Shown: in pieces, positions 2,133-30,887 of the stretch | Numbering within the stretch: position 1 is the stretch's first letter | Layout: every line of letters begins with the position of its first letter | From: Arthonia radiata | Taxonomy: Eukaryota; Ascomycota; Arthoniomycetes; Arthoniales; Arthoniaceae | Direction of reading: 5' to 3' | DNA: 64,000 nucleotides | NCBI GenBank assembly: GCA_002989075.1 | Contig: PSQN01000012.1 | Location: 310,001 to 374,000 of the forward strand | The notes under the pieces: generated by a model | Databases searched by the model: none | The model's input: only the letters and a program-made list of their open reading frames with translations | What the model was told of the DNA's origin: nothing | Position numbers and translations under genes: made by a program

Positions 2133-5100
2133 ATGGTATGTCATTGCAATCGAATCTGCCACCCTACTGCCTGACAAACCCACATGAGCTGGCAAAGCAT
2201 CAGCACCTGGCTAACCAATGTATAATAGGCGACCTTCAAAGCTCTCAACATCGAGTCCGACGATGATTCCGAAGACGAGATTGACAATACCAAAGAAATT
2301 CAGATTGAGGACGCTCTGAAACTTTATCAGACAGCTTTGAAATATCATGTGTCACAAAAGACCCTCGACAAAGCCGGCGATGCCTACACGGAGCTCTTCA
2401 GCTCGGACATCTTCAAGTTCCCAGAATCGCAATCTGAGTACAACCGTGTTGCGGCATACGAGTCTCAGCAGGATGCGGACAGCGGATTCATCGACGACTT
2501 TGAGGATGAAGTGGTAGTCGTACCGATCGCGACAGAGAACGCGCCAAGTACATTGCCTCAGATCCTACATCTGTCCTTCAAAAACCGAGCTGAATACTAC
2601 CTGGACGTCTTACGTGCGGAACATGAGGAGCAACATATCGGCGGGAACGCGCATACCGAGGCCAAGACCATCGAGCTTGCACAACGAGCACTCGATGACT
2701 TCGCGGAGGCTTTGGATAAGGACGAAGACAACGTTGACGTCTGGAGACGTGCTGCACGACTGGGCAAGGCGCTCAACAGTTGTCGCATCGCCCGCTTCTG
2801 CCTCGAGACTGCGCTTCAAGAAGATGAAGATGGTCCGGACGACGTACTGAGCCTACCCAATTTCGAGCGACAATTCGATGAGCAGGCCCTCAGCGCGGTG
2901 CAAGCACACGTTGAGGACGACCTGTCGCGATCATCTCAGGTTGAAGTCGATCATACCAGTCGACAAAAACAGACCTCCCGGCTGCAAAGAGCTACGAATC
3001 TGTACAATTTCTTGCCAGCGACGCCGTCACTCCAAGAATATGCCAAAGAACGTCAGTCAAAGACAGGGACGAGCAGAGAAAGAACAACAATACAGGTCGA
3101 AGAGCACACAATGGACGCTGTTGCTGAAGCATTGCTCAAGCAGCTGCAGAAACAAGAGGAAAACGGCTCTGATAAAACACGCTCCTCGGCGATCATGCTC
3201 ACCCTTCCTGCCGTTGGCCATGACGACCCATTCAAGCACAACTGGGACATGACAGGCATGCAGCGCAGCTCAGACAATGCAGTGACTTCGGCATCAAGTC
3301 ATCGACCTTCACAGACGCCTGTCAGCGAAGCGAGACCTGACAAGCCTCTATCTGAAACCTCTGGCCCACAAGAGCACCATGAGGAGAACCAGCAACTCTC
3401 CCCCATGAAGTCAGAGGCTCCCCGGAAACGCTCATCAGAAGCAGCGGGCTTGGCCGATGGCGCCGATGGCGAGCGTGGCAAAAGCAAGCGTATTCGAGCA
3501 CGGAAGTCAACTACTGCTGAGGGGCGATCCGCTGAGCCTAACACACTCGACTTGACACCAGGCGGTGATCCGCGACACGAGGTATATCTACAAGCCGATC
3601 GCTGGCTGTTTGACCTCATGCGAGATGTCCTGAGGCGCATGGAAGTTAGAATGATTTATGACGCTCATGACATTAGAAGGATTCTAGTACCCAATAGTCC
3701 TTATGGTCTGGTTGGCGGCCCCCGTCGTACAGGCATAGGCCGTGCCTGTCAAGACCTTTACACCGCCATGCTAGCCTGGAGTCCTGCAAAAACTGAGATG
3801 CTGACCACTTCAGCCGACCGACATCATGATTCCGAAGGACAGGAAGACAATGGATTGCTGGCTTTCCTCGATTCAGCTTCTGCTAAGGTGCACAAGAACG
3901 CATTAGCAGTCACCACTGAGGTCGATGATTATGTGCGATTCGTGAACGGTGCAAATCTAACCGTCGAGCAAGCGTGCGTACTCCTGTGTCAAACGCTGCT
4001 CTCAGAGAGACGGCCGCAGTCCAAGGATGCTCAGTGGACGGAGCCTCTCACCAGTCCTTACATCGCTAGAGTCTGGCCAGAGACTGTGAAACACACTGTT
4101 GAGCAAATATCAGAGGCGGTGAACGAAGACCTAGCGGACTTCATATCACTTAACATGCCGTCGCAGCTCGACGACACGAGCAAACAAAGGCATGTATTCG
4201 AACTTGTCCAAGCTATCTTTGAAATACGCTTGGACGCGTTGGCTCGATCCACAGCTCCAACGAGCGATGTTGATGCTGAAACCAAAGCAATGCGGAAGAT
4301 CCGCGCCGATCAGTGGTGCCACTTGGCCCGAGAGATACTTGCGATCGTATTGTACCAAGAGTCTGGCGATCTCAATTCTGATGCTCCCTCGTCGAATAGT
4401 CATCGCGCGTTGTTGCTGAGGCATCTCTGGGCGTCCGTGTTTCACCTCAAGGCGAGCGATGAAATCACAAGAGACCACCATGTGCAATGTATAAACGATC
4501 TCAAGCAACAAATTAGAGACGCTGCGTTACCGAGCGGCAAGATCACGCTGCCGAACAGTCTGGCAATGTCGGAGATCTCGATAGAGGCTGCTGATCGGGA
4601 GATCGTCAAGCTCGACACGATGGACTTCTTCCTATCTATCTTCCAGGAAGGACAACAGCATCCGGTGGATCTCATTGAGAAGCTCGAGCCAATCCTCATA
4701 CCAACGGCACAACCACCAGCACATGATGGCAGAGAGCGACGACGAGATCGCAAGTCACAGAACAACCCGACCACGAAGTCACGCCAAGAGATTCTATCAG
4801 AGTTTGTGACGAAAGCTGATACCTCATTACGGCTTACTCTGTGGTATCGTCTTCGCGACTCTTACAAGGCTATTGATTTTCCGTCAAAAGTACTGTTCGT
4901 CAATCTGCGCATCATGGAGGTCCTTCTCGGCGAAGTTCAATCGTTCGCTTATGCTCAGATCGACGCCGATGAGCGCGAGCGTATCCTTCTCAAGCGGCTT
5001 CATGATGTTCATGAGCTACTCGGCCAGACTTTGGTGATTGTTGAAACAAAGACTGCCAGCTTAGAGTGCCTGGAAATTACGCAGCTAAAGTCGTCGGCCC

Positions 5101-9370: not shown

Positions 9371-12300
9371 TTACAGTGTGTGAACTCTGTGTTCTAAAGA
9401 TAGGCAATAGAGCCTGGTCAACATTCGGATCAGATATTCGTTCGCACTCCATCTGGCTTCAAATTCCTTAGCAAATTTTGTTTTGACAAACAATTCTTCT
9501 CCTGTGCAGGGCTTACCAGGTTCGAACAACGGTACTACCTTGAGTCGAGCTTGCTCCCCATAATCCTCATCTTCTTCCTCTTCCAAGAAACTATAATCCA
9601 TTGACATGCAATGCCACATTGCGTACGACGCTTCGTCATCCTCTGGTAATCCCCCGAATAACAAAACGACATCAATTAAATTCACGAGCTCCCAAACCGA
9701 TGCAAGGCGGAGCAGGGATGTCTGATAGGGCTTGTGTATGCTCTTCGCGCTACGCCACGTCCTCGCATTTAGCGATCCTGCACGGATGTCATCGCACACG
9801 ATTTCACTTAGCCGCGGCGAGGGCGATGGCCCAATAAGCATCGTCACAGCTATTGAACCTTGCGGACCATAATGGGATGGTTCCAGCATAGCTTGTAGGT
9901 CCGCTGATCTCTCCAGGCTCGACTCGAGGAATTTGACAATTTGCCAGAGAGCAGCAAGATGCGCATCCTGTGATATATGTTTAGTATACGACTTGGCGTA
10001 ACCTTCTTGGCCGATGGTTGTAAAGTATGAAATCTGAGCCAATCAATCAGGGAAGCTTACCGTCACGTCTACGACTGCATGCATACATAGATATGGCGCA
10101 GAAAATCTGTTAGTGTTACTCTGACCCAGATTTGTTGATCGTTTATAAAGCGCCAAGCAAAGTTGCAACGTGAAGCTGACAGGATCGAAAGAAGCTTCGT
10201 CGCTGGAGGTGCCGTGGCTGTCGTTCTCGGAGAGAAATTCGTGAATTGACTTGTGCAGAACATCGTATCCAAAGCCGAAGAGGTCGGCGGCTTGTTCTAT
10301 AGTGGGGCTTCCGTTCCCCCTGAATTTGAAGTCGGTCTCTACAAATAAGCCTTGCGTAATTGCAGCCAGCTGCCTAGAAGCTTGTTCGTAAAGAAGCAGG
10401 GCCTCTCCAGTTGACCAAGCTTTCTCGGGCGTGTCAACACCAAAACATTCGATATTGCGGACTTCCAGGAATTTGGTCGAGACCAGAAGGTCCGCATACG
10501 CTCTCACTTTGTAGATTGCAATTAGGCGGGCGAGTTTCTGATCGTATATTGGATCGATAGATTCTACGATCTTTCGGATCAATTCGCGGATTTCATTCGG
10601 CATGGCTCGCGGCCGACTCTGTAGTGTTTCTGGTGAATCTCCGTTCGACAAACCCGTACGAAGAGATCGCGTGACAAGAGTCGCCCACAGAAAGACGCCA
10701 TTGGCTTGGTCCGTAATTGCTCTTTCTAGATGATCAATAAGGTCGTGTTGCTCCGCTGATCGGCTGGTGACTTGCTGCGATGCGGTAAGAGTATCTTTGA
10801 CGTAATTGCGAATGTCTTCTTCAGTCAACTTCTGCACGCGTAGAGTCTTCGAGGGGTCTCGTCCGAAAGCATCCTTCATTTGGGTCCATTCGCGGCTAGC
10901 CAGACATGGCTTGATGTTGGAAAATTCACTCATCTAGATCGTGTCTTTAGTTAGTACAAGTAATCAGGAGCGATACCGACAGCTCGCACTAGATCCAAGG
11001 TAGGCCTTGAACAGCCATACATTCCTTTCTGTTGCTTCAAAAGCCCAACAACTAGCGCCCCGGCGTTGTCTCAAGAATGTCTTGTTTGGTATATCAACAA
11101 GCTCGAGCTGGGGCTGTGCTAATGTCTGGTTTTTAAGGTCTGGCATGAATGGCGACACAAGGTTTTCTCGGCGTGAGCAAAGCCTGACGACATACCTGCA
11201 AAAGTGTTTCAACAATTTCGAAAGGGTCACCTTCATATTCATCGACACCATCTATGAACAGACAATTCTTACAACCTTGATCCAGAAGTGCTTGCATGGC
11301 AGCATACAAAAGTTTGCGCAGAGTGGAGAGATTCCAGGAGTAGACTTTGGCCGGACCGCCAATGGAATGTTGTAAGCCTGTTCTGCCGAAGACTTTAGTC
11401 GTTAGAACTGGCCACTTCGTCAAAATTTGGTGAGCGAGTGAACGGAAGAGACCAAGCTGTGACTTCTGTAGCATGTTGCCCGGAGACCAAAAGAAGAACC
11501 TCAAAACAAGAATTTCATTGTTGCCGGCCCATTCATGTAGTAATGCCAGTGTCTTTTCGTGCTCGGCGAGGAACCTCATCAAGGTGGATTTCCCAGAGCC
11601 TGGATGCCCCGTGATCCAATAGATGCCATCCCCAGACTGCAGCCATTTGGCCAGATGAAGGTCGGGAAACTTGACTTCGGGTATCTCCAACGCCGAATTG
11701 AACGTGTTTGAATGAGCTTCAGCAACTGAGGATTCTCTTGCGTCGACCTCAGGGTAGTTCAAACTGTCCAGTAACCTATGGGTTGCTTGTGCTGACAATA
11801 TGTTTTTGCGGAGATCTTCAAGCCGACCTGCAACGTCTAGTGGGAGCTTGTCAAGATTGCCGCAGAGATCTGCTTGAAGGGAGGCAAGATCATGGCGGAT
11901 AGCAGGCTGTATGTTCTGAACAGAGTCTTGAAGTTCTGACTGTTGTATATTCAGGACCGCTGCAAGTCTTAGTGTGAGCCCAGAGCGCAGCTCTTGTAAT
12001 CTTCGGCGGTACTCTTCTAGCTCTTTCTCTTGCCATATGCTCTTCAATGCCTCCCAAACGCTTTTCAGAGCTCGATGCTTGCCGCTGACATTAAGCTTTT
12101 GTAGATTTGCTAGAAAAGATTGAGCGAGCACTTGCGAGCGAGTCGCAAGTTCACGAATAGCTTGCGCATCTTCTGTGGAAGCCGCTCGCGGTATTGCATC
12201 TTTCGAGGATCGAAGGCGTTCACTGATAGCTTGCAGATCTTGCGTGATGCATTCAAGTTCATCGTTGCTGTTCGTCAGCATGGATATGGCATGGTTCAAT

Positions 12301-12436
12301 GGTATGATGCTCACGACTCAGACACGCCCTCGACAGACTTGTATATGTCACGACTGTGCGTTGTAAGCCGAGTACCGTAGCCCACAAGCTGTACGACTGC
12401 GGCTGCAGCTCCCAGGATTGCGAGCGACTCCGCCAT
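9371..12436 (-). CDS. NACHT-domain STAND NTPase (fungal NLR-like)
   Basis: Four-exon model: 12436-12315, 12267-11196, 10933-10061 and 9967-9371. Introns are 47, 262 and 93 nt with donors GTGAGC, GTATGT and GTAAGC, and all joins keep frame, giving 887 residues. The N-terminus MAESLAILGAAAAVVQLVGY is the hydrophobic helix common in fungal STAND proteins. A helical linker follows, then a NACHT core with Walker A GHPGSGKST (about 261-269) and Walker B CLFIDGVDEYEG (about 376-387), then CLASREW and the winged-helix-like EEDIRNYV region. No WD40, ankyrin or TPR array follows, so the sensor half is either an unrecognised helical domain or missing. Such proteins act in non-self recognition and programmed cell death. 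The 262-nt intron is long for this window and could hide a further exon. Confidence 0.8.
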
Positions 12437-19903: not shown

Positions 19904-20667
19904 TCATCCGATACTAAGCCCTCCGCCACCATCACCAGTGTTGACACTACTACTACTGTTCGAGTAGCTCTTTTGAGCTTTGTACATCAGCATGATCACA
20001 ATACCCGCCACCTGTAGTATTTATCAGCACGTCTCACAAACCAATACGTTACAGCTAGGCCAAATACTACTTACCAGCGCCTGGTCATAACCTGGCTGGA
20101 CCTTTACAGTCCAGTGTTTATACACCCAATGCGACGACTCCAGCGTTGCAACCACCTGACCGTTGCACTTGATGACCTGGTGCGTTCCTTTCCAACCTTC
20201 CCAGTGGATCTCCCAAGTCACCTGCTGCTCTTTGGAGCCCGCCTTACTCTCAAAGCTGACCTCGTACAGCTCTTCCTCTTGCACGTTGAAGTGCCAGTGC
20301 ACGTCCGTAAACTGGCCGTCTTTCGAGAGAAATATCCAAGGTCGTTGCCTAAATGGATGGCAAGGGTTGGGCCAATGCCATATACGCTTCACGTTGAAGA
20401 GTTCCTGCCCGCTATTCTCATGCAGAGCTTTAATGCTAGTACGTCAGCGATGCGCCGATCAGAAAGGGATCACACAGCCGACTTGCTGTAGGTGCGCGAC
20501 TTCTTAAGGTGTTTGCACTCAAGAAGTGGCTCTTTGCTCTTCTCGGTTTTCACTTTATAGAATTTGGGATGACCGCCGGCCAGCGCTAGGTCGTGAAAGT
20601 GAGCCTCGATCACGACTTCTTTATCTTCGATGAAGTGGTCGAACAGTCCGATCGGTGTGTGGGCCAT
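19904..20667 (-). CDS. LURP-one-related (Tubby-like) paralogue 1
   Basis: Three exons: 20667-20487, 20427-20075 and 20011-19904, giving 213 residues. The protein has the LOR/Tubby-C-terminal-like pattern: antiparallel strands, then HWTVKVQPGYDQAL running into a hydrophobic helix VAGIVIMLMYK. This matches the hallmark C-terminus of plant LURP-one and scramblase-like proteins. A Ser/Gly-rich tail follows. Intron 1 is best read as a GC-AG intron (donor GCAAGT, 59 nt), because that keeps the phase-1 join seen in all six sisters. A GT donor two bases downstream with an alternative acceptor is possible. Intron 2 (63 nt, GTAAGT) is phase 0 inside the conserved DQAL motif. TACGTGTCCT lies 151 bp upstream. 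Confidence 0.72.
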
Positions 20668-20817
20668 GACGACTACTATGCAGGCACACCAGGTGCTGCG
20701 CAATGGGGAATTTGAAAGCTTGTGTTTGTGGCAATTGTGTCACAGCTGCTCAAGTCACTAGTAAGCAAGTCACGCAGCACGCATCGAGCAAAAGCATCCA
20801 TTGAGCAAACCATGTCT

Positions 20818-20827
20818 TACGTGTCCT
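20818..20827. promoter_or_regulatory. TACGTGTC element upstream of LOR 1
   Basis: TACGTGTCCT (AGGACACGTA on the coding strand), 151 bp before the LOR 1 start codon. The same ten bases recur upstream of LOR 4 and LOR 5, with near-identical versions upstream of LOR 6 and LOR 7. A CGCAGCACGCA string at 20773-20783 is also found near the LOR 4 element. Confidence 0.5.
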
Positions 20828-20892
20828 GAAAGGCGCGCAGCGTCAGCATCTTACTTCAGGTGCAGGCTCATAGTATCACCAAACAAGCTGCC

Positions 20893-21099
20893 CTATGCTG
20901 TTGCGATGACTATTCCGGTTAGCGCGATGGAAGCGGAAAGCTGACCCACAACATGCCACACAGCCCCCATGAAACGCAGCGTATCCATGGTATATACTGT
21001 CGCATTTGGAAGCGGCCAGCCATAACACTCGTGCAGACGAGGCTTCAGCGCGTACCTTGATGCATTGGAGCCCAAAACGAGCTGACACACCGTATACAA
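20893..21099 (-). other. Short open frame with one hydrophobic segment
   Basis: A 68-codon frame between LOR 1 and LOR 2, ending with the hydrophobic stretch QLSASIALTGIVIATA. It could be a remnant of a membrane-protein gene or chance. No family recognised. Confidence 0.25.
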
Positions 21100-21206
21100 G
21101 AGGTCAGAGTGGCCTTCAACCCATCAGCCTCCGCATACATCCCATGCTTCATACGGCTTGGATCTTCGCAACAGAAGATGGTTGATCCGATTTCAGGCCG
21201 AGCCAT

Positions 21207-21944
21207 CTATATTTTCTCAGAACCAGTCTTATCGCTATTGGAAGGCCAGGTTTGTGCCGTCTTCCACATCAGCATTACAACAATTCCTGCAACCTCCGAT
21301 GACAGTCAGCAAATACAGAAATCCGTGGAGTCCGGTCTCAAGGTTCACCAGCGCCTGATCTACGCAAGGCTCAATTTTGACCTCCCAACGTTCACGTGCC
21401 CAGTCCGTCGATGTGATCGTCGCGAGTAACCGATCGTCCCATTTGATCAATTGCTGGGTCCCTATCAAGCCCTCCCAGTGTACGCTCCATGTCACATCCT
21501 GGTCTTCGCTCGCTCGGACACGACTGCGAAATTTGAGTTCATACACCTGCTTCTGTCGCAGCTGCAGATCCCAAGATGACTTTGTGATGAGGTTCCCCTC
21601 AGGATTCTTGGTCTCGAAGGGTAGTTGTGAGGAGTCTGCGGGGTTTGCATTGAGATGCAACGAGAACAGCGGGCCACCGCTGTTCTCACGGAAGTCTTGC
21701 AGGTCATAAGTATTTTGCCCTTGCTATTGGTCAAGCATCATTAAGGAGTTACGGACTCACCGTACGTGCACGAGTCCTGACGTGGTGTGCTCTTAATCAA
21801 TAGCAACGTCCCCATCGAGCGCGCTGTGGTTTTCTTCACAAGAGGTGGGTCGTTGGGTATGGTCGGCTCGGGTAGAAAAACCTGCAGAGTGACTTCTTCG
21901 TTCCTCGTCAGGTCCTCGAAGAGGCCGACTTTGAGGGTGCTCAT
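21207..21944 (-). CDS. LURP-one-related (Tubby-like) paralogue 2
   Basis: Exons 21944-21761, 21719-21349 and 21293-21207, giving 213 residues, the same length as LOR 1. Intron 1 is 41 nt (GTGAGT...GCAAG, phase 1), short even for a fungus. Intron 2 is 55 nt (GTGAAC, phase 0). The start MSTLKVGLFEDLTRNEEVTL aligns with the other members (GLF/Y-E-x-F/L). The barrel part contains QDVTWSVHWEGLIGTQQLIK, which is close to LOR 1's QQVTWEIHWEGWKGTHQVIK, so LOR 1 and LOR 2 look like the most recent duplicate pair. It ends DQAL-VAGIVVMLMWKTAQ plus a short polar tail. The TACGTGTC element is not found upstream, only a weak AGTACGTATTG near 22045. Confidence 0.75.
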
Positions 21945-22545
21945 CGTGCCGATAATTCGATCTGTGCCCTACACGGCCCTCGAACTTGGTGCCACACTAC
22001 GTCTCATACTTATTTCGAGTACACGATAGTCGCGGTATGAGAAGTACGTATTGCGTGGGAACGTGACGAGGCTGACTTGAAGGAGAAAGCTGGGCTAATT
22101 TAGGATGGAAGCTCGTCATCTTGCACCACCTCAAGATTGGCCCCACCACGGGGGGGTTTGAGTCCCTCTATCGCCGCTTTTGATGGAGGATTGCAGCGCT
22201 AAAAGAGCGGCCTTGGGGCGCATTGGCCCCAGAAGCCCCGCCAAAGGCTCAGCAATCTTCCCGTCACTCACCTGGACTCCTGCTCAGCCATCGTCTCGCC
22301 CAGCAACACTCTACCAATCGCCCCACCGTCGTCTTATTTCTGACAGGCAAAAATACACTGAGAGGTGTTGTTCTTCCTTACTTGTCGTCAGGCATGTCAC
22401 TAGACATTGAAAAGCTGATGTCCAATCGCGATGAAGCCATGCACAACACGAGCCAAACGCAAGCCAAACACTTCTCTGGAGCACTCGCCAGAATACATCC
22501 TCACTTGCATAGCCGTGAAGGTCGCAGCTACTCCCTAAAGCCATC
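21945..22545. other. Intergenic spacer in LOR array
   Basis: About 600 bp between LOR 2 and LOR 3. Nothing recognisable apart from likely promoter and 3' sequence. Confidence 0.4.
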
Positions 22546-23260
22546 TCAGCCACCGCCTCCATTCGGAGCACCACCAGGACCGCGCCGCCCACCGCGCTTG
22601 CGTACCCTCACCATATCCCACATGATCATCACTGCGATCGCCGCAATCTAAGATCATGTTAGTACCGACACAACTGTTTCAGACAACACTCAAAACGCAC
22701 GAAGTACTGGTTGTATCCCTTTGCAATATGCACATCCCAATGCGGCAGGTTCGCATTGGAGATATCTGCCACGTGTTCACCCTTACTTGTGTCCATCTTA
22801 ATCAAGCCACGGTTTTCTTTCTCCCAAGTATAGAACGCAACGTTGAGCCTGAGCAGCGCACCATCAGCGGTGTTGGGGAAGTCAATAGAGGGTTCCTGGG
22901 AGTGCTTGTATTTGTCGTCGAGCTGCGTAATGGTCTTGCCTTTCGAGTCTTCGAAGCGCTTCTGTTTGGAGAACCATGATTCCTTGAGCGAGAAGAGGTC
23001 CTGGCCGTTTTTGCGGAAGTCTGCAATCTGTAAGGGACGTTGTCATGTTGACGGTGACAGGTTGGCTTACACAGCCTGTGCTCGAAGGGACGCCAAGAAT
23101 GCTTGCACTCGAGGAACGTCTCTTCATTCAATCGCATTGGAAGTTCTTTGAGGATTCTCGGATGCCCTCCCCAAAACCCGAAGCTCTGCTTGGGTATTAC
23201 CAGGCGCGCCTCCTTGTCCTCTACGAAAATCGCCGACTGTCTGTCTTTGCTGTTGCTCAT
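22546..23260 (-). CDS. LURP-one-related (Tubby-like) paralogue 3
   Basis: Exons 23260-23071, 23020-22701 and 22647-22546, giving 203 residues. Introns are 50 nt (GTAAGC, phase 1) and 53 nt (GTGCGT, branch ACTAAC, phase 0). The middle exon has no ATG in frame and is only seen by splicing. It reads FRKNGQDLFSLKESWFSKQK, then HVADISNANLPHWDVHIAKG. The usual PG-x-DQAL becomes KGYNQYF, followed by the helix IAAIAVMIMWDMVRVRK and a Gly-rich tail. The N-terminal GLF motif is replaced by a shorter MSNSKDRQSAIFVEDKEA start, so the first strand may differ. It is the most divergent intact-looking member of this half of the array. Confidence 0.7.
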
Positions 23261-23870
23261 GTTGTGTTTTTCTATCTTATCGATTGTCTCTGATCCAGGG
23301 AGCATACAGTGCAAGTCAAGGCGTTTTAAAACATTCGAAAGGGTTTGAACGCCCTCAGAGCGATTGACGTGGCCTGCACTGCGTCGCCCTTCAGACCTCG
23401 TAAGTTGAAGGACTTCCACATCCGGTGCGATCAATCTGTAGTTAGGGGCCAATAGGTCGCTCAGCTTGAGTTTCAGAATGCTTACAACTTGTATTTAGGA
23501 TACGAGCACACGTCAGATGGCGCGGCGTATACTGTCTGTGGACAGATTCTCAGCAGCATACTTGGCAGCGAGTCAAGTGGTCACTCAATGACTCTGGGAA
23601 GTATCATGATAAGACTCAAATAAGAAGGTGTCTTATGGGCTCGACCACATCCGCTGAAGGGGACCCAGCACAACGTCTGAGTGTGGCTTTGCTTGTGTGG
23701 ATCTCCGGCTTCTGTAGACGCTTGCCTGACCAAGCTGAGCGTTTGACCGGGTCAAGATCGCGCGTTCCTCGCGAGCGACAAACACGTACCTATCTTACAG
23801 GCGCCAAAACTTAGCACCACAACAACAAATCTACCGTTCATGAATACGTCACCATCCTTACCAGACCAGC
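23261..23870. other. Intergenic spacer in LOR array
   Basis: About 610 bp between LOR 3 and LOR 4. An inverted variant of the shared element (CACACGTCAG, near 23497) is the only recognisable feature. Confidence 0.35.
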
Positions 23871-24599
23871 TTATTCGCCGCCTCCAACATCACCGCCAGC
23901 ATCATCGCCTGCACCACCGCCAGAGGGCAGCTTGATCCTGACACGGTCCCACATGGTCAAGACGACGATAGCAGCGACCTATGTAAGCATTAGTTCCGAC
24001 AAGCGTCGCATACAAATCCAACTCACCAAAAGCTGGTCCGTACCAGGTTGAACTTCAATCTTCCAGCGCCGGTACGGCCAAACCACGATATGGGTGATAG
24101 TTGCGCGCGTCTCGCCATTCATCTTGATAAACATGGTACCATCAGCCCAAGCTAGCCTGCTCTTTGCCTCGACGGTGACATGGACATTTCTACCGTCCCC
24201 AACAACGTTTTCAAAATGCATATCAAACTCCTTCTTGTTCGCAAACATACGATCCCGACGCATCTTGATCGTCGTCCCATTCTGCAGTTCGACCAGATGA
24301 CGTTGCAGAATGTGCGTCTTGTGGATCTTCAGCAACGGCTTTCCGTCAACAGGTTTGAACTCTACAGTTGGTATCAGCTGGAGCGTCATCGACCGAAGAA
24401 GGCTGGAACTACCTCGCTCATGCTTCAACCACTCAGCTTTGGGCTTGGACACGTCGACAAGCTTCTGCTCCCCGGCATGGTCCAGTACGTCAATGCTAGG
24501 ATTGCCGGCCCAAAACCAGAGAAAGCCGCAGTGGACGTGCAAGGTCTGCTTCTCATCTTTCGTAAACTCAGGGGTCACGCCTATTTTCTTGCTACTCAT
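23871..24599 (-). CDS. LURP-one-related (Tubby-like) paralogue 4
   Basis: Exons 24599-24413, 24361-24027 and 23978-23871, giving 209 residues. Introns are 51 nt (GTAGTT, phase 1) and 48 nt (GTGAGT, phase 0). The start MSSKKIGVTPEFTKDEKQTL was chosen over an upstream in-frame ATG at 24656 because it lines up with its sisters. The barrel part includes KPLLKIHKTHILQRHLVELQ and VHVTVEAKSRLAW. The C-terminal hallmark is RRWKIEVQPGTDQLL joined to VAAIVVLTMWDRVRIKL. The tail is Gly/Asp-rich and ends GGGE. It has the TACGTGTCCT element 125 bp upstream. Confidence 0.78.
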
Positions 24600-24723
24600 G
24601 GCTTCGGTGTGCAGTGTGGCGATAGCAATATGCGAAGACAGTTTCGCTGCCGACAAGCAGCAAAGTTATGTCTACTTCAGGAGTTCCTGGGTAGCCGCGC
24701 AGCACGCACTCCATGGAAGACTG

Positions 24724-24733
24724 TACGTGTCCT
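24724..24733. promoter_or_regulatory. TACGTGTC element upstream of LOR 4
   Basis: TACGTGTCCT, 125 bp before the LOR 4 start codon. CGCAGCACGCA at 24698-24708 is shared with the LOR 1 upstream region. Confidence 0.5.
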
Positions 24734-25376
24734 CGATTACCACCCCGGAATCAGCTCCTTCGCCTCTACAAGTGATTTGTCCTTGCGAGCGTGGTGTAGC
24801 CCGCATTAAGAAGACGACTGTCCATGTCCTCGGTCACCTCTGGCGTTAGCTTCTTGGCTTTCACACGTCGCATGTTCTTGGAACGAAATGCTGCATGCAT
24901 TAAAGAAAAGGCTAGGTGTTCCCTTTCAGTTGCAGCGTCAAAGTCTTACCTTTGGCATGCTGAAACTTGCTTCCGAGAAGGCGCGTGCCGTTGCGAAGAA
25001 CAAGTTGACTAGCGCGGTGGAAGGGCGTAAGCTGACCGGGGGTCACGGACCTGCTCGCACTCTCAATGTCAAGTCAGGGCTTGCCTGTAGAAAATGTCCG
25101 ACAATGCAAAACCCAGGACATATACGTCTACGACCTCACGCTCATTCAGCACTCGTGTAACCGCGGAGTAGCTGGCAGCTTGGCATGATGGAAGCGATGG
25201 CTCTTCCAAGCTTGGCTTCCAGGTTTGGGGCGGCTGATATCGGTAGACGCGGCCGTTGTGGTGGCAACTGGTCGCACATTGCACGATGCGCTGATCGCGC
25301 AGGCATGCGGTGTACTTGGTTGATCAATTAGTCTGTGCTAGTCCGCAACGGACGTCAGCATCGATGTCTCGACGTT

Positions 25377-25832
25377 TTATGAACTTGCCTGCGAGCAGCG
25401 AGACGACTCAGCGTCTATCTTTGAGTTCTTTGCAGCTTCTTGGGTAGCAGTGTTCAAGGCGATCTCTTGTCGAGGAACGAGGCCATGTATCAGTTGCCAC
25501 ATAGCAGTCGTGACCGTCCGGGAATCGCTATCCAACTTGAACGACGCGAACACCGCCGTTCCTTTCCTAACCGGTAGCACTCGGCTTATATCGGTCAGCA
25601 ACAAGGGCACCAAGATGATGGCCATCAAAGAAAAGATTCTCCCTGCTGCACGGCGCGAAGAAGGGTATCGTCGACAGCAAGAAGACCAGCGAAATCGCTC
25701 TTTCTGCGACTTGATAAGAAGGTTGCCTTTGGCGAGTTTAAGCGGGCAGTACCAGTAACACAAGGATGTGATTGCTAGATGAGCATCGAACAGAGGTCTT
25801 GAATCAGGGTATCTATCCACCACTTTGGCCAA
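25377..25832 (-). other. Open frame overlapping the LOR 5 stop, putative membrane-protein remnant
   Basis: A 150-codon frame (from a TTG; no upstream ATG) that overlaps the last codons of LOR 5 in another frame. It begins AKVVDRYPDSRPLFDAHLAI, matching AKVVDRYPGWRSGFGAYLAI in the frame after LOR 6. It has one clear hydrophobic stretch, IFSLMAIILVPLLLTDI. It looks like a copy of a second small membrane-protein family carried along with LOR duplications, possibly lacking its 5' exons. Confidence 0.35.
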
Positions 25833-26606
25833 AGATGCAGCCTAAGGGATTACAACCTCCTCCTCCTTCAACATCACCACCACCACTTGAGCCAAATATT
25901 CCTGAAGCCTCGACCATTTTGATCGTCACAAACCCTGCACACTGCGCACGCGATTAGCATGTCGCCTTTCTGAAAGTTTGACGGACCAAAACTCACGAGA
26001 GCCTGATCCTTGTTCGGCTCGACTTCCATCGTCCAGTGCCTGAACTTGCTGAAACACAAGGGTTTTTTTATCGTCGCCATTTTTTCCCCATCACATTCGA
26101 TTACCAGCCCATTAAAATTCTTTCCAATGTGCAAGGAATGCAAGCTCAACTTGAACTCGCGTCCTGCTTTGTTCTTTACCGTGACTGAGAGACCGGACCT
26201 GCCGATGGCCTTTGTCAACACCTCCTTTTCTCCCGTCTCGATGTCATGAAAGTAGTACGGATGCCTATCTTCCCATGTGCAAGGATTGTGCGGGCGCCTC
26301 ACGTCGTAGAGGTGCTTGTCGTCCTTTCCGATCTTGCCGTGGATTTCTTGAGCGAGATTAGCGAAGGGTTCGGTCTGTGAGAGATGCCGGTGGGACGACG
26401 TGCAACATACGCTGGGTGCGCGAGAACGGGTTCCATCCGCGTTCGCAGTAAACGCTTGTGTCCTGGGAACCGCTGACCTTCTCGAAAATTGGGTGTCCGT
26501 ATGGCAAGAAGAGGAAGCCAAACCAGAGACTCCAAGAGAAGTGGACTTTATACACTGCCTTCTTACTCTCGCTGAAGCCCTCGTATACCTCAACCTTACC
26601 ACTCAT
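25813..26606 (-). CDS. LURP-one-related (Tubby-like) paralogue 5
   Basis: Exons 26606-26411, 26346-25997 and 25941-25813, giving 224 residues. Introns are 64 nt (GTATGT, branch CTAAT, phase 1) and 55 nt (GTGAGT, phase 0). The start MSGKVEVYEGFSESKKAVYK is followed by a Trp/Phe-rich strand and later ATIKKPLCFSKFRHWTMEVE, then PNKDQAL. The final exon begins CAGFVTIKMVEASGIFG, so the helix is less hydrophobic than in its sisters. It ends in a Gly/Cys-containing tail. An alternative acceptor 5' of this one would change the frame and stop at once, so phase 0 is preferred. It has TACGTGTCCT 138 bp upstream. The last codons overlap an open frame of a second family. Confidence 0.7.
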
Positions 26607-26743
26607 GGTTGTAGCTAGTCGGGCACTCTAAAGCAACGGTGACGATGTGCCAAGTGCTCGTAGGCGTGCATTAGCGGTCGTATCCTAAAAAGTGCGAGAC
26701 TCTATGAGCAGTCCCGCAACCTACTGCACAGAACTGAAGACAC

Positions 26744-26753
26744 TACGTGTCCT
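26744..26753. promoter_or_regulatory. TACGTGTC element upstream of LOR 5
   Basis: TACGTGTCCT, 138 bp before the LOR 5 start codon, identical over ten bases to the LOR 1 and LOR 4 elements. Confidence 0.5.
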
Positions 26754-26857
26754 CTGCTATTCCTACTGTCAGGTCCGTACATTTGACACGTTGAAGCTCA
26801 GTGTTTGCAGCAAGTCAATTGAAATCGTGCGAACGGTTGGATAGGGTCCAAAGCCAG

Positions 26858-26896
26858 GCGGATCAAGTTGGACTTCAAGCGGATCAGGTCCGACTT
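26858..26896. repeat. Degenerate 18-bp direct repeat
   Basis: GCGGATCAAGTTGGACTT and GCGGATCAGGTCCGACTT (15 of 18 identical), with further GGATCAG strings near 26960. It lies in the 1.3-kb gap between LOR 5 and the open frame at 27915; otherwise that gap shows no gene. Confidence 0.4.
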
Positions 26897-27914
26897 AGGT
26901 GTATCAATCCTATCCCTGACTTAACCTGAACGAATCACCTCTTCCTTACTGGACCCGGATGGATCAGATTGGGTCAGAGTTTAGACCTAAAAATATAGTG
27001 AAATCGAACTGAGCACCGAAAGATAGTAACAGATCAAGCACATAAATCCCTCCCTGTTTCTGATCCGGAGATATCAGTCCATGGTGAAGGACTGATCCTT
27101 TTGACTCGTTGCCGACTCCTGAAGGAGCACGTGGCAGCCCCAGGTGATGCGAAGAATTTACGTACCCCACTTTATTCCTAGCGTCAGCATCTCGTTCCTA
27201 GAACATGCGAGGGAGATCGATGCTGTTGCAAAGTTACAGGCGGCTAAAGTGATGTCAGCTCAATGATGGTGCTACGAGCTCATCGCGCATAGTCTCCTGA
27301 TCGGGCAATAACTTGCGGTCCCACAGATGCACTGTAAGAGCTGCGTAGCTTTTCGCATCAACACGTGTAAGGAGCGCATCCGTCGCCGACAAATATGCAA
27401 GGCTGGGGGGCGAGAGTGTCTGAGCGCAGCGATGTTAGCATCCTTACCGATACTTGCTGACAGATCACAGTTTCAAGCTGCTTGGTAGCAGTCGAGGATG
27501 TGGAATCAGGATGAATGTATGCATCTGCTCTCTGCTCACATCCTTCTTGATAGAGAATTTCTCATAGATGTAACGCGGGCGAGGTGATCCTCAGGTCCTG
27601 AGAGACTGGTTGTTTTCGACCACGGACATCCTGTCACTCCATAAGGATTCAGGGGCCAGGTAAGGATCGCATGACTTAGCGGCACATGACTGCAGCCTGG
27701 ACGGCACGCCGACTGGCTATAAGAAGGCCTTGGTCGCCAAACCCTCCTTCAGGAATTCAGCATTCAGCATTCGGTACAATGCAATGCATTGATAACCTGT
27801 GTAAGTGATCGCTGAGGTTGAGATGCTTCGACGGCCGAACGCCTCGCAAGTGATCAAGCGCAGTAAATCGATAAAGCAAGTCTGGCCAATTTGTCTATCG
27901 AGGCTCCGTCACGA

Positions 27915-28178
27915 TCAGTCTACCCGCTCAACCGCTTCCGTCACCGCCGAAAGATACGCCGACGCCGTCATCACCGCCAGCAGTCGAGTCGCGAGAAGTA
28001 GAATAACATCGACAGCGAGAACACACATGAGAGCGAGCTTTTGGAAAGTCCAAACTTGATGCCAGCCTCGGAAGACGGCCTTTCGCAATGACCACAGCGG
28101 CAGTACCAGTAAACAAAATGCTGTGATCGCTAGATAGGCACCGAAACCAGATCTCCAACCAGGGTATCTATCCACCAC
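27915..28178 (-). other. Open frame after LOR 6, putative membrane-protein remnant
   Basis: An 87-codon frame starting MVDRYPGWRSGFGAYLAITA, with two or three hydrophobic stretches (AFCLLVLPLW; LALMCVLAVDVILLLATRLL). The frame extends upstream through AVVVVVAKV into the LOR 6 last exon. It is clearly homologous, also at nucleotide level (shared AGGGTATCTATCCACCACTT on the plus strand), to the frame at 25377-25832. It may be the 3' exon of a separate small membrane protein; no complete gene can be built. Confidence 0.4.
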
Positions 28179-28179
28179 T

Positions 28180-28945
28180 TTAGCTACTACAACAACAACT
28201 GCACGGATTCAAGAGATTGAGGCCTCCTCCTTGTCCATCGTCATTCCCCCCACTCCTGTTTTCGGGCCTTTGAGTATCCCACATCAACGACGCAGCGATC
28301 TCACTCATCTAGACAAGCGTTAGCAATAACAACAGCCTTACATCTTAGTCACAGATAACACTCACAAGCAAGCCATCAACACCACGCTCAGGCTTCACGG
28401 TCCAGTGCATCGTAGAAAGCACAGGATGATGGGTAATGACTGCCAACGTCTCCCCATTGGATTTATCCTTCACGTCTACCGTGCCCATACCCACAGCGTG
28501 CTCCTTCTCAATGATGCAGTGCAATTCCTTAACGCCATCCAGCTTGTTTTGGAAGTTTACATTGTATTCCTTCTTCGAAGGGCCTGGTTTGTGATGTTTG
28601 GTGATCTTAATGGTGTCTCCATTCTCTATGGCGATCTCGTGGTGGTGGACAATATGCGATACCTTCAGCTCGCACAACTTATTTCCACTTTTATCCGAGA
28701 TATCTGCAATTGTCGTCAACATACGCCTATCGGAGGATGCTTGGAGGCAATACTCAGTACTCACTCCGTATGTGCTTCCATTCAGCCAACGGTCCCCAAT
28801 TCTTCCTGACTTTTACTATTTTCTTGCCATCCTTCTTGATCGAGAAGTTACACAGTGGAGCGAAAAAAAAGCCGGGATGCACTGTCCAGGTCTCTCCTTC
28901 TTGTGCAACGTATTCCTTCCATATGCCTATTTGGCCTTTCGACAT
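28180..28945 (-). CDS. LURP-one-related (Tubby-like) paralogue 6
   Basis: Exons 28945-28765, 28703-28366 and 28308-28180, giving 215 residues. Introns are 61 nt (GTGAGT, phase 1) and 57 nt (GTGAGT, branch CTAAC, phase 0). The start MSKGQIGIWKEYVAQEGETW fits the family. The barrel contains NKLCELKVSHIVHHHEIAIE, which aligns with LOR 4's KPLLKIHKTHILQRHLVELQ. The hallmark reads HWTVKPERGVDGLL followed by MSEIAASLMWDTQRP. The tail has a CSCCCSS end, unlike the Gly/Asp ends of its sisters, and this reading overlaps the membrane-protein frame. A TACGTGTCTT element lies 187 bp upstream. Confidence 0.74.
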
Positions 28946-29864
28946 CTTGTTAAACTCGTATTTTACGTCAATAAGGGCTTAAAGGTCTGACACGAGCGTC
29001 TCCTGCAGGATCTGAGCAATACGAGGATTCACTAGCAACACGGGGATTCACTCAAGCAATACGAGGATCAGGCATTGGAGCGGCCCGCACTGCCAGCTGT
29101 TCCTCAGCTCTGCCAAGGACTGCTCCAAGCGTACGTGTCTTCGGCCCCCAAAATTTGCTATACGTATACAACGCAATGGCTTTGGACGTGCTCACCGCCA
29201 TGTTAGGGGCGCAATCACCGATTGTTGCATGGCGACCTCGGAACACTTGCAGAGGCGCACAGTGTCGCGTGCATTTTGATGGACCCCGCGGTTGAAGTGA
29301 TGTTGACACCTGGCCTCTTCTATCGCCCAATGTGTCGGGACGACCTGCAATGTCAGCAAGACAAGCGCAATAGTAACCCCGTTACAGGCTCGCAAGCTTT
29401 GCGCAAGGTGGATGAGCCCATGTGATGATGATTGGGGACGTACCGTCTGCCCTTGTCATACGGTTGTGGAGCTGCGTATTGCACCCATGCGCCTGCTCAC
29501 GTCGGGCAGACGCTGGCTAGGCATTGCATTCCCTTGCAGTTCGCTGCTCTGCAAGAACGACATGCAGTTTGGCAAGGCGTATCGCATCACCCCTGCAGGA
29601 CCGCATAACGTCGATGGTCACGATCCCTTCAACCGTACCTAAGTTGGCACGTGACTGCTTACATGAGGACTCTGAGCAGCTCGAGGCGACTGCTCACTTC
29701 GTCTCTTCTTGGTGATGGTGTTGAAGTGTTGCAGGCGCACAACAATTTCAACAGTAATGGCAAGCATCTCGACAGCCATGCGTCAAGTAGCTTCGACTAG
29801 GAGAAAACGGCGGTTGGTTAAAGCTTCAACCATCTACGGGTTCGTAATCGTCATCGTCATTATT
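28946..29864. other. Intergenic spacer in LOR array
   Basis: About 0.9 kb between LOR 6 and LOR 7. It holds a short direct repeat, GCAATACGAGGAT at 29016-29028 and 29056-29068, and the LOR 6 upstream element. No gene recognised. Confidence 0.4.
29132..29141. promoter_or_regulatory. TACGTGTC element upstream of LOR 6
   Basis: TACGTGTCTT, 187 bp before the LOR 6 start codon, one base different from the LOR 1/4/5 ten-mer. Confidence 0.45.
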
Positions 29865-30738
29865 CTAGTCGTCGTCGTCGTCGCCGTCGCCGCCGTCCTT
29901 CTTCTCATCGGGCTTGTCGCTCTCGAAACTGAGCCTGACTTTCGGCCACATTAGCATGACAGCGATCCCAGCGATCTCAGGGCTTGTCAGCAAACATTTC
30001 ACACCGTCGGCATTGGATTTACACGTACCAAAGACTGGTCGACGTTGGGCTGAATCTCGATCTTCCAAGACGGCCACCACGGACTGATCGCAGTGTGCTT
30101 CATCGTAGCCACGACCTTGCCCTTCCACCTCACTTCGATTTTGTGCGTCGCAAATTTGCGGAACAAATTCCAGTCCGACTCAGCCCAGTGGATGGTGAAC
30201 TTTACCTTCTTGCCCTTAGTCTCACCGATGCGGCTGACGAACTTCATTTTGCGCTTCATGTGATCGAAGTGCCACCGGTGGACGTTCTTCCACTTTGCTA
30301 TCCGGCTCCTTGAGGTGTACTTGAATTCCTGCTTGTCTTTGTCGATGCAAGGGAACGATGTGAACCACGGCCTCTTGATGTAGAAGAGTCGCGTACCGTC
30401 CAGCTTGCGGAGGTCTGTGACGGTCTTATTACTACGTTCGAGCGGATGACAGAGTGACAGCAGCAGCACAACCTACCATACTTATGCCCCAGTGTCAGCT
30501 GGTGCCTGACTTTGAGCAGTTGCTTTTCTTTGCCGTCGTCGGTGATCTTCATGACCTTAGGATAGAGAGCCGGGAACGCCATCCAGTGCGAGCGAAGCTT
30601 CAGCTTGACGATCTTGTTTTCGGTGAACTCCTCGTAAAGGCCTACTTTTGGGGGCTCCGGTGGTGGCTCTAATTCCGCTCCCAGTCCCGCCTCCAGCCCT
30701 TGCAGTCGCGCTTCCCATGGCGGCTTTTCGTCCTTCAT
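29865..30738 (-). CDS. LURP-one-related (Tubby-like) paralogue 7
   Basis: Exons 30738-30477, 30414-30029 and 29975-29865, giving 252 residues, the longest copy. The N-terminus has a 30-residue extension (MKDEKPPWEARLQGLEAGLG plus a Pro/Glu stretch) before the usual KVGLYEEFTENKIVKLKL. Introns are 62 nt (GTAGGT, phase 1) and 53 nt (GTACGT, phase 0). The barrel includes KKVKFTIHWAESDWNLFRKF. The hallmark is SWKIEIQPNVDQSL joined to IAGIAVMLMWPKVRLSF. The tail is acidic (DGGDGDDDDD) instead of Gly-rich. TACGTGTCCA lies 140 bp upstream. It is the first gene of the array in the direction of transcription and perhaps nearest the ancestral form. Confidence 0.78.
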
Positions 30739-30877: not shown

Positions 30878-30887
30878 TACGTGTCCA
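30878..30887. promoter_or_regulatory. TACGTGTC element upstream of LOR 7
   Basis: TACGTGTCCA, 140 bp before the LOR 7 start codon. Confidence 0.45.

Follow-up and report, generated by a model that had tools for sequence, protein, structure and literature searches.

Proteins with the LURP-one-related (LOR) or Tubby fold are widespread, and most of them have no assigned biochemical function, the LOR family being associated above all with plant defence. The yeast protein Slm35 is described in passages of PMC12817334 as a soluble protein that acts in mitophagy and retrograde signalling. The antiviral role of PLSCR1, according to parts of PMC10371867, needs hydrophobic loops, the C-terminal helix and acylated cysteines, and scrambling is dispensable to it. 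In fungi, LOR proteins are on record in a passage of PMC10264818, an A. fumigatus 'DUF567 domain protein' is named in a passage of PMC4551469, and the Tubby C-terminal-like domain is counted among fungal domains in a section of PMC5415576. Full-text literature searches gave no published description of a fungal LOR array among the matches listed. Here we describe such an array, LOR-A to LOR-G, on the minus strand of a 64,000-nucleotide stretch of the Arthonia radiata genome (contig PSQN01000012.1, positions 310,001 to 374,000); this whole stretch is called the window, and positions are given in its numbering. LOR proteins are already known in fungi, and what is unusual is the dense, diverged array.

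The array has its best sequence profile and its best structural match in the LOR family (PF04525; At5g01750, PDB 1zxu/2q4m), which is also its best PDB sequence match by way of a second LOR gene of the same genome, here named C1 after its contig, and a joint profile. The likeness lies in a C-terminal W..(P/G)xxDxxL motif and a hydrophobic helix; the array differs from the family in that its copies fall under the Pfam cut-off (three are unmatched), in the aromatic loops of LOR-A to LOR-E, in its variable tails and in the tandem order of seven copies. The C1 LOR has the same exon-intron structure as the array genes, but it passes the cut-off, lies on another contig and has no copy of the promoter element described below within 1 kb of its start. 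The Tubby/TULP C-terminal domain, a barrel with a helix, is a structural match to a model of LOR-D, although no PF01167 match is listed for the array. Slm35 can be likened to the array by its description in PMC12817334, in part, as a fungal Tubby-fold protein with no membrane helix that serves stress signalling and not lipid scrambling; it differs as a mitochondrial matrix protein and negative regulator of mitophagy. With PLSCR1 the array has the superfamily fold in common, and the buried C-terminal helix and Cys cluster of PLSCR1 matter for its antiviral role (parts of PMC10371867), but no scramblase profile is listed for the array and a Cys cluster occurs in LOR-B only, at the C-terminus. 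The array is a set of divergent LOR/Tubby-fold proteins, not scramblases, and the explanation that we favour by a narrow measure is, as a whole, a co-regulated set of divergent LOR Tubby-barrel adaptors, intracellular and diversified in their loops and tails.

Gene models and family membership

Splice-site enumeration and homology were used to rebuild the gene models, which agree with an initial annotation, made from the letters of the window, of seven same-strand three-exon genes encoding 203-252 residues. The tandem array occupies 19904-30738 on the minus strand, and all seven genes are intact, with a single terminal stop in each frame. LOR-A (29865..30738, 252 aa; exons 30738-30477, 30414-30029 and 29975-29865) has an acidic Gly/Asp tail, and LOR-B (28180..28945, 215 aa; exons 28945-28765, 28703-28366 and 28308-28180) a Cys-rich one. 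They are followed by LOR-C (25813..26606, 224 aa; exons 26606-26411, 26346-25997 and 25941-25813), LOR-D (23871..24599, 209 aa; exons 24599-24413, 24361-24027 and 23978-23871) and LOR-E (22546..23260, 203 aa; exons 23260-23071, 23020-22701 and 22647-22546), the last with a basic Arg/Gly tail, and then by LOR-F (21207..21944, 205 aa; exons 21944-21761, 21695-21349 and 21293-21207) and LOR-G (19904..20667, 213 aa; exons 20667-20487, 20427-20075 and 20011-19904). The introns are 48-65 nt long and GT-AG in 13 of 14 cases, the first intron of LOR-G being GC-AG. The phase is 1 for the first intron and 0 for the second in every array gene, at common alignment columns 110 and 244. Both introns of LOR-D (24362-24412, 51 nt; 23979-24026, 48 nt) have lengths that are multiples of three, and the first is free of in-frame stops, so that the frame would be kept if it were retained.

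Pfam searches of the array proteins and C1 were run at a limit of E 10, with program filters that drop most matches above about 0.1; the curated cut-off of Pfam LOR is 24.5 bits. LOR-A (3.8e-4, 20.6 bits) and LOR-G (5e-4) matched LOR significantly and LOR-D (0.015) and LOR-F (0.033) weakly, all under the cut-off, and LOR was the sole family listed for these four. Searched singly, LOR-B, LOR-C and LOR-E did not match LOR, and LOR-C and LOR-E had no Pfam match of any kind. Neither the Tub profile (PF01167) nor the scramblase profile (PF03803) was listed for any of the seven array proteins or C1.

Further support comes from the same genome. The canonical LOR gene on contig C1 (4671566-4672336; 4567-5337 of locus L009) passes the Pfam LOR cut-off at 1.9e-9 and is retrieved at 1.2e-18 by a profile built from the seven array proteins, and its three exons are separated by introns identical in position and phase to those of the array. 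Because C1 lies above the cut-off and the array profile retrieves it, the array proteins can be placed in the LOR family, and the superfamily membership proposed in the initial annotation stands. The seven-protein profile alone missed 1zxu in the PDB, and the same profile with C1 added found it. The fold was predicted for LOR-D; the model is of low confidence, and its best structural match is the Arabidopsis LOR protein, followed by Tubby domains (VIA-align, PDB), with the Tubby/TULP domains 1s31, 2fim and 3c5n in rows 2, 3 and 5. We regard the LOR fold and ancestry of the array proteins as practically certain. That the array and the C1 LOR descend from one three-exon gene is shown by homology and intron structure, and the fold match supports it.

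Neither the canonical LOR gene on C1 nor the common promoter element figured in the initial annotation. Own-genome protein searches, in which six array proteins (all except LOR-F) and C1 were the queries and counts are lower bounds, gave C1 as the only LOR place beyond the array among the matches listed. An exon-by-exon search of the genome with PF04525 found nothing, and it is uninformative because the genome does hold LOR genes. With the eight LOR proteins as tblastn queries, no convincing further copy was seen in the window and 10 kb of each flank, and no convincing gene remnant in the intergenic gaps (the best match, left of the array, has E 0.018). LOR-G, the seven-protein alignment and C1 found no homologues in the protein collection, which is taken to mean that the collection holds no close fungal sequence.

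The array copies are 19-35% identical in amino acids, pair by pair (19-34% when measured on the codon alignment), and the best match between paralogues is 7e-38. Among the genome's eight LOR proteins, every one of the 28 pairs in the codon alignment differs most at third codon positions, which argues that the copies are constrained coding sequence and, together with the paralogue matches, that their likeness is not due to chance. The seven copies are real, constrained and strongly diverged paralogues.

The sequence features by which the family had been annotated held in unequal degree. The W of the C-terminal motif is invariant in all eight proteins, with the D in seven and D-Q in six; within the array D-Q is kept in five of seven copies, LOR-B having D-G and LOR-E N-Q. 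The proposed GLF/Y-E-x-F start is clear in part of the set, best in LOR-A, LOR-F and LOR-G, and unclear in the others, and the C-terminal hydrophobic segment is present in seven of the eight proteins, C1 included, but weak in LOR-B. The presumed beta1-beta2 loop is aromatic in LOR-A to LOR-E, with the longest aromatic stretch in LOR-C, and is not aromatic in LOR-F and LOR-G. The tails are acidic in LOR-A, basic in LOR-E, Cys-rich in LOR-B and glycine-rich in most. By hydropathy only, none of the array proteins has a segment of the hydrophobicity that spanning a membrane requires, and no N-terminal signal peptide is indicated, the 19-residue maximum being 1.00 or less in all seven N-termini.

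A promoter element common to five array genes

The sequence RGACACGTA lies 133-195 bp before the start codon of LOR-A, LOR-B, LOR-C, LOR-D and LOR-G, always in the orientation of the gene. It takes the form GGACACGTA before LOR-A (30878..30886, first base 148 bp before the ATG), LOR-C (26744..26752, 146 bp), LOR-D (24724..24732, 133 bp) and LOR-G (20818..20826, 159 bp), and AGACACGTA before LOR-B (29132..29140, 195 bp), all on the minus strand. The element was found blind, by counting words common to the 450 bp upstream of the seven start codons with no prior motif; the 8-mer GACACGTA was common to five of the seven upstream regions, and RGACACGTA is this 8-mer with a leading A or G. In the window the 8-mer has exactly five occurrences, each of them upstream of an array gene. 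No copy of the element precedes LOR-E or LOR-F, and none lies within 1 kb of the C1 start.

The motif is post hoc, chosen as the best shared 8-mer, and its uncorrected binomial probability of 1.7e-14 becomes about 1e-9 when multiplied by the 65,536 possible 8-mers, the choice of window being uncounted. Dinucleotide-preserving shuffles reached four of seven upstream regions in 9 of 1000 trials and five of seven in none, and random stretches outside the array, with overlapping picks allowed, reached five in 2 of 2000 sets. Genome-wide, RGACACGTA occurs 263 times, fewer than its reversed control (436). Beyond the window, the 10 kb right flank has one copy and the left flank none; another copy lies about 2.7 kb upstream of the C1 start, on the opposite strand, and one roughly 1.3 kb upstream of a cytosolic-type HSP70 gene. 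A blastn self-comparison showed no other alignable similarity between the array upstream regions, and since these are otherwise unalignable, retention of the element points to function. Joint regulation of the element-bearing array genes is, in our judgement, likely.

A more specific reading makes the array a target of the unfolded-protein response (UPR), with the element as the UPR element (UPRE) of type 2, UPRE2, bound by the bZIP factor Hac1/HacA, and with LOR proteins that manage stress of the endoplasmic reticulum or membranes. The element was, after all, discovered blind by 8-mer counting, and its reverse complement TACGTGTC, present on the reverse strand in five of seven array promoters, is given in a passage of PMC11087760 as the conserved sequence of high-activity yeast UPRE2 variants and is contained in CTACGTGTCT, the UPRE2 consensus applied to U. 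maydis in a passage of PMC4836707. LOR-E, which has no element, carries GGCCACGT at about -114, as ERO1 does at about -235, and this common sequence is a weak lead toward the UPR. Against the same reading, the three genes of the genome that probably encode BiP, ERO1 and LHS1, with identities and starts assigned from their translations by eye, have neither TACGTGTC nor the core ACGTGTC within 1 kb. The BiP gene carries a match to the Aspergillus-type UPRE at about -230, and given this match the UPR genes here may use another form of UPRE. The element could also be bound by other ACGT-core bZIP or bHLH factors. In U. maydis, a passage of PMC4836707 gives 74 candidate effector genes with predicted UPREs and UPR-dependent expression in two only. 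Because the element is found in none of the three probable UPR genes, control by the UPR is kept as a rival and not as a conclusion, and we consider it rather unlikely. The probable BiP (locus L037, open reading frame ending at 4297) has HSEL at its C-terminus; the usual ending of BiP is HDEL or KDEL.

Candidate roles of the array proteins

Through the common ACGT-core element five of the seven genes would probably be read out together. The proteins are most likely soluble and intracellular, each a Tubby-type beta-barrel that its own hydrophobic C-terminal helix closes, and may serve as adaptors docking on a membrane or a partner protein, not as enzymes. By analogy with PLSCR1 and Slm35 such a role is plausible; adaptor function or membrane docking is put forward tentatively, as something short of an even chance. 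With the loops and tails diverged, one signal would deliver several adaptors with different targets.

That the proteins are instead lipid movers of the phospholipid scramblase type is suggested by the superfamily that scramblases have in common with LOR proteins (as quoted in a passage of PMC12817334) and by the C-terminal Cys cluster of LOR-B, which could be acylated. The lack of a listed scramblase profile for all eight proteins at the E 10 limit and of a segment of transmembrane length by hydropathy make this highly improbable. The LOR-B tail ends in PCSCCCSS (28180-28206), a possible acylation site, and no such cluster occurs in the other array proteins.

A parallel to LURP1 and PLSCR1 can also be drawn in which the array is a locus of cell-autonomous immunity, its Tubby barrels acting against mycoviruses, rival fungi or bacteria. 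Several Arabidopsis LOR genes are needed for defence against an oomycete (abstract of PMC8624885), and virus restriction by the PLSCR1 barrel and its C-terminal helix is independent of scrambling (a passage of PMC10371867). The copies are in tandem and highly diverged, and at a distance of about 8 kb there are pieces of a NACHT-type receptor gene; no element, however, ties that gene to the array, the 8-mer occurring in the window solely at LOR genes. We hold this explanation to be improbable. The receptor pieces, of the fungal NOD-like type, are at 10043-12317 on the minus strand, with NPHP3_N well above its cut-off and SesA, NACHT and DUF7791 just under theirs.

Wider still is the proposal that fungi turned the Tubby/LOR barrel into a multi-gene stress or immunity module, its diversified barrel adaptors co-induced under one bZIP-type element (possibly that of Hac1, for stress of the endoplasmic reticulum), which we rate as unlikely. 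If it were true, fungi would be the third kingdom in which the Tubby/LOR fold is used in stress-induced defence, after plants (LURP1) and animals (PLSCR1). The array allows a direct test of such use outside plants and animals: its diverged loops and tails form a natural series of variants, and the element is a concrete cis handle for identifying the controlling factor.

Divergence and turnover within the array

The identity of 19-35% among the array copies could reflect old divergence and not the fast, lineage-specific evolution suggested in the initial annotation. In a tree of the eight LOR proteins no branch is starred, and the best resolved groups are F+G (94/94) and B+D (88/89); LOR-G is the nearest array relative of LOR-F (35% identity), and LOR-B pairs with LOR-D. 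Repeat-induced point mutation does not explain the divergence, because its dinucleotide indices are about the same inside the array as in the remainder of the window.

Under neutral birth-and-death duplication the array would be a group of redundant housekeeping LOR copies with no specific joint function. Tandem LOR pairs do arise in plants, five being stated for B. napus in a passage of PMC10264818, and two short matches within the array, an 86-bp 3' stretch of LOR-B and LOR-C and a 22-nt LOR-B-like piece, hint at turnover. This explanation fits poorly with seven intact frames and conserved splice sites, with the excess divergence of third codon positions in every pair, and with the keeping of the element in five of seven otherwise unalignable upstream regions, and we give it little credence.

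The 86-bp stretch at the 3' end of LOR-B (28099..28184, minus strand) is 81% identical to one across the stop of LOR-C and behind it (25745..25829, minus strand), and a genome search found these two places only; the coding parts of the two genes are about 20% identical. The pair may stem from local conversion or be a conserved 3' element. As an extra coding exon it was rejected, since comparison by eye gave no clear pattern of coding sequence. An inverted repeat of 26 nt (92%) links the C-D gap (24868-24893) with the B-C gap (27185-27210), and the 22-nt piece resembling LOR-B exon 1 lies in the B-C gap at 27539-27560; both are possible traces of rearrangement within the array.

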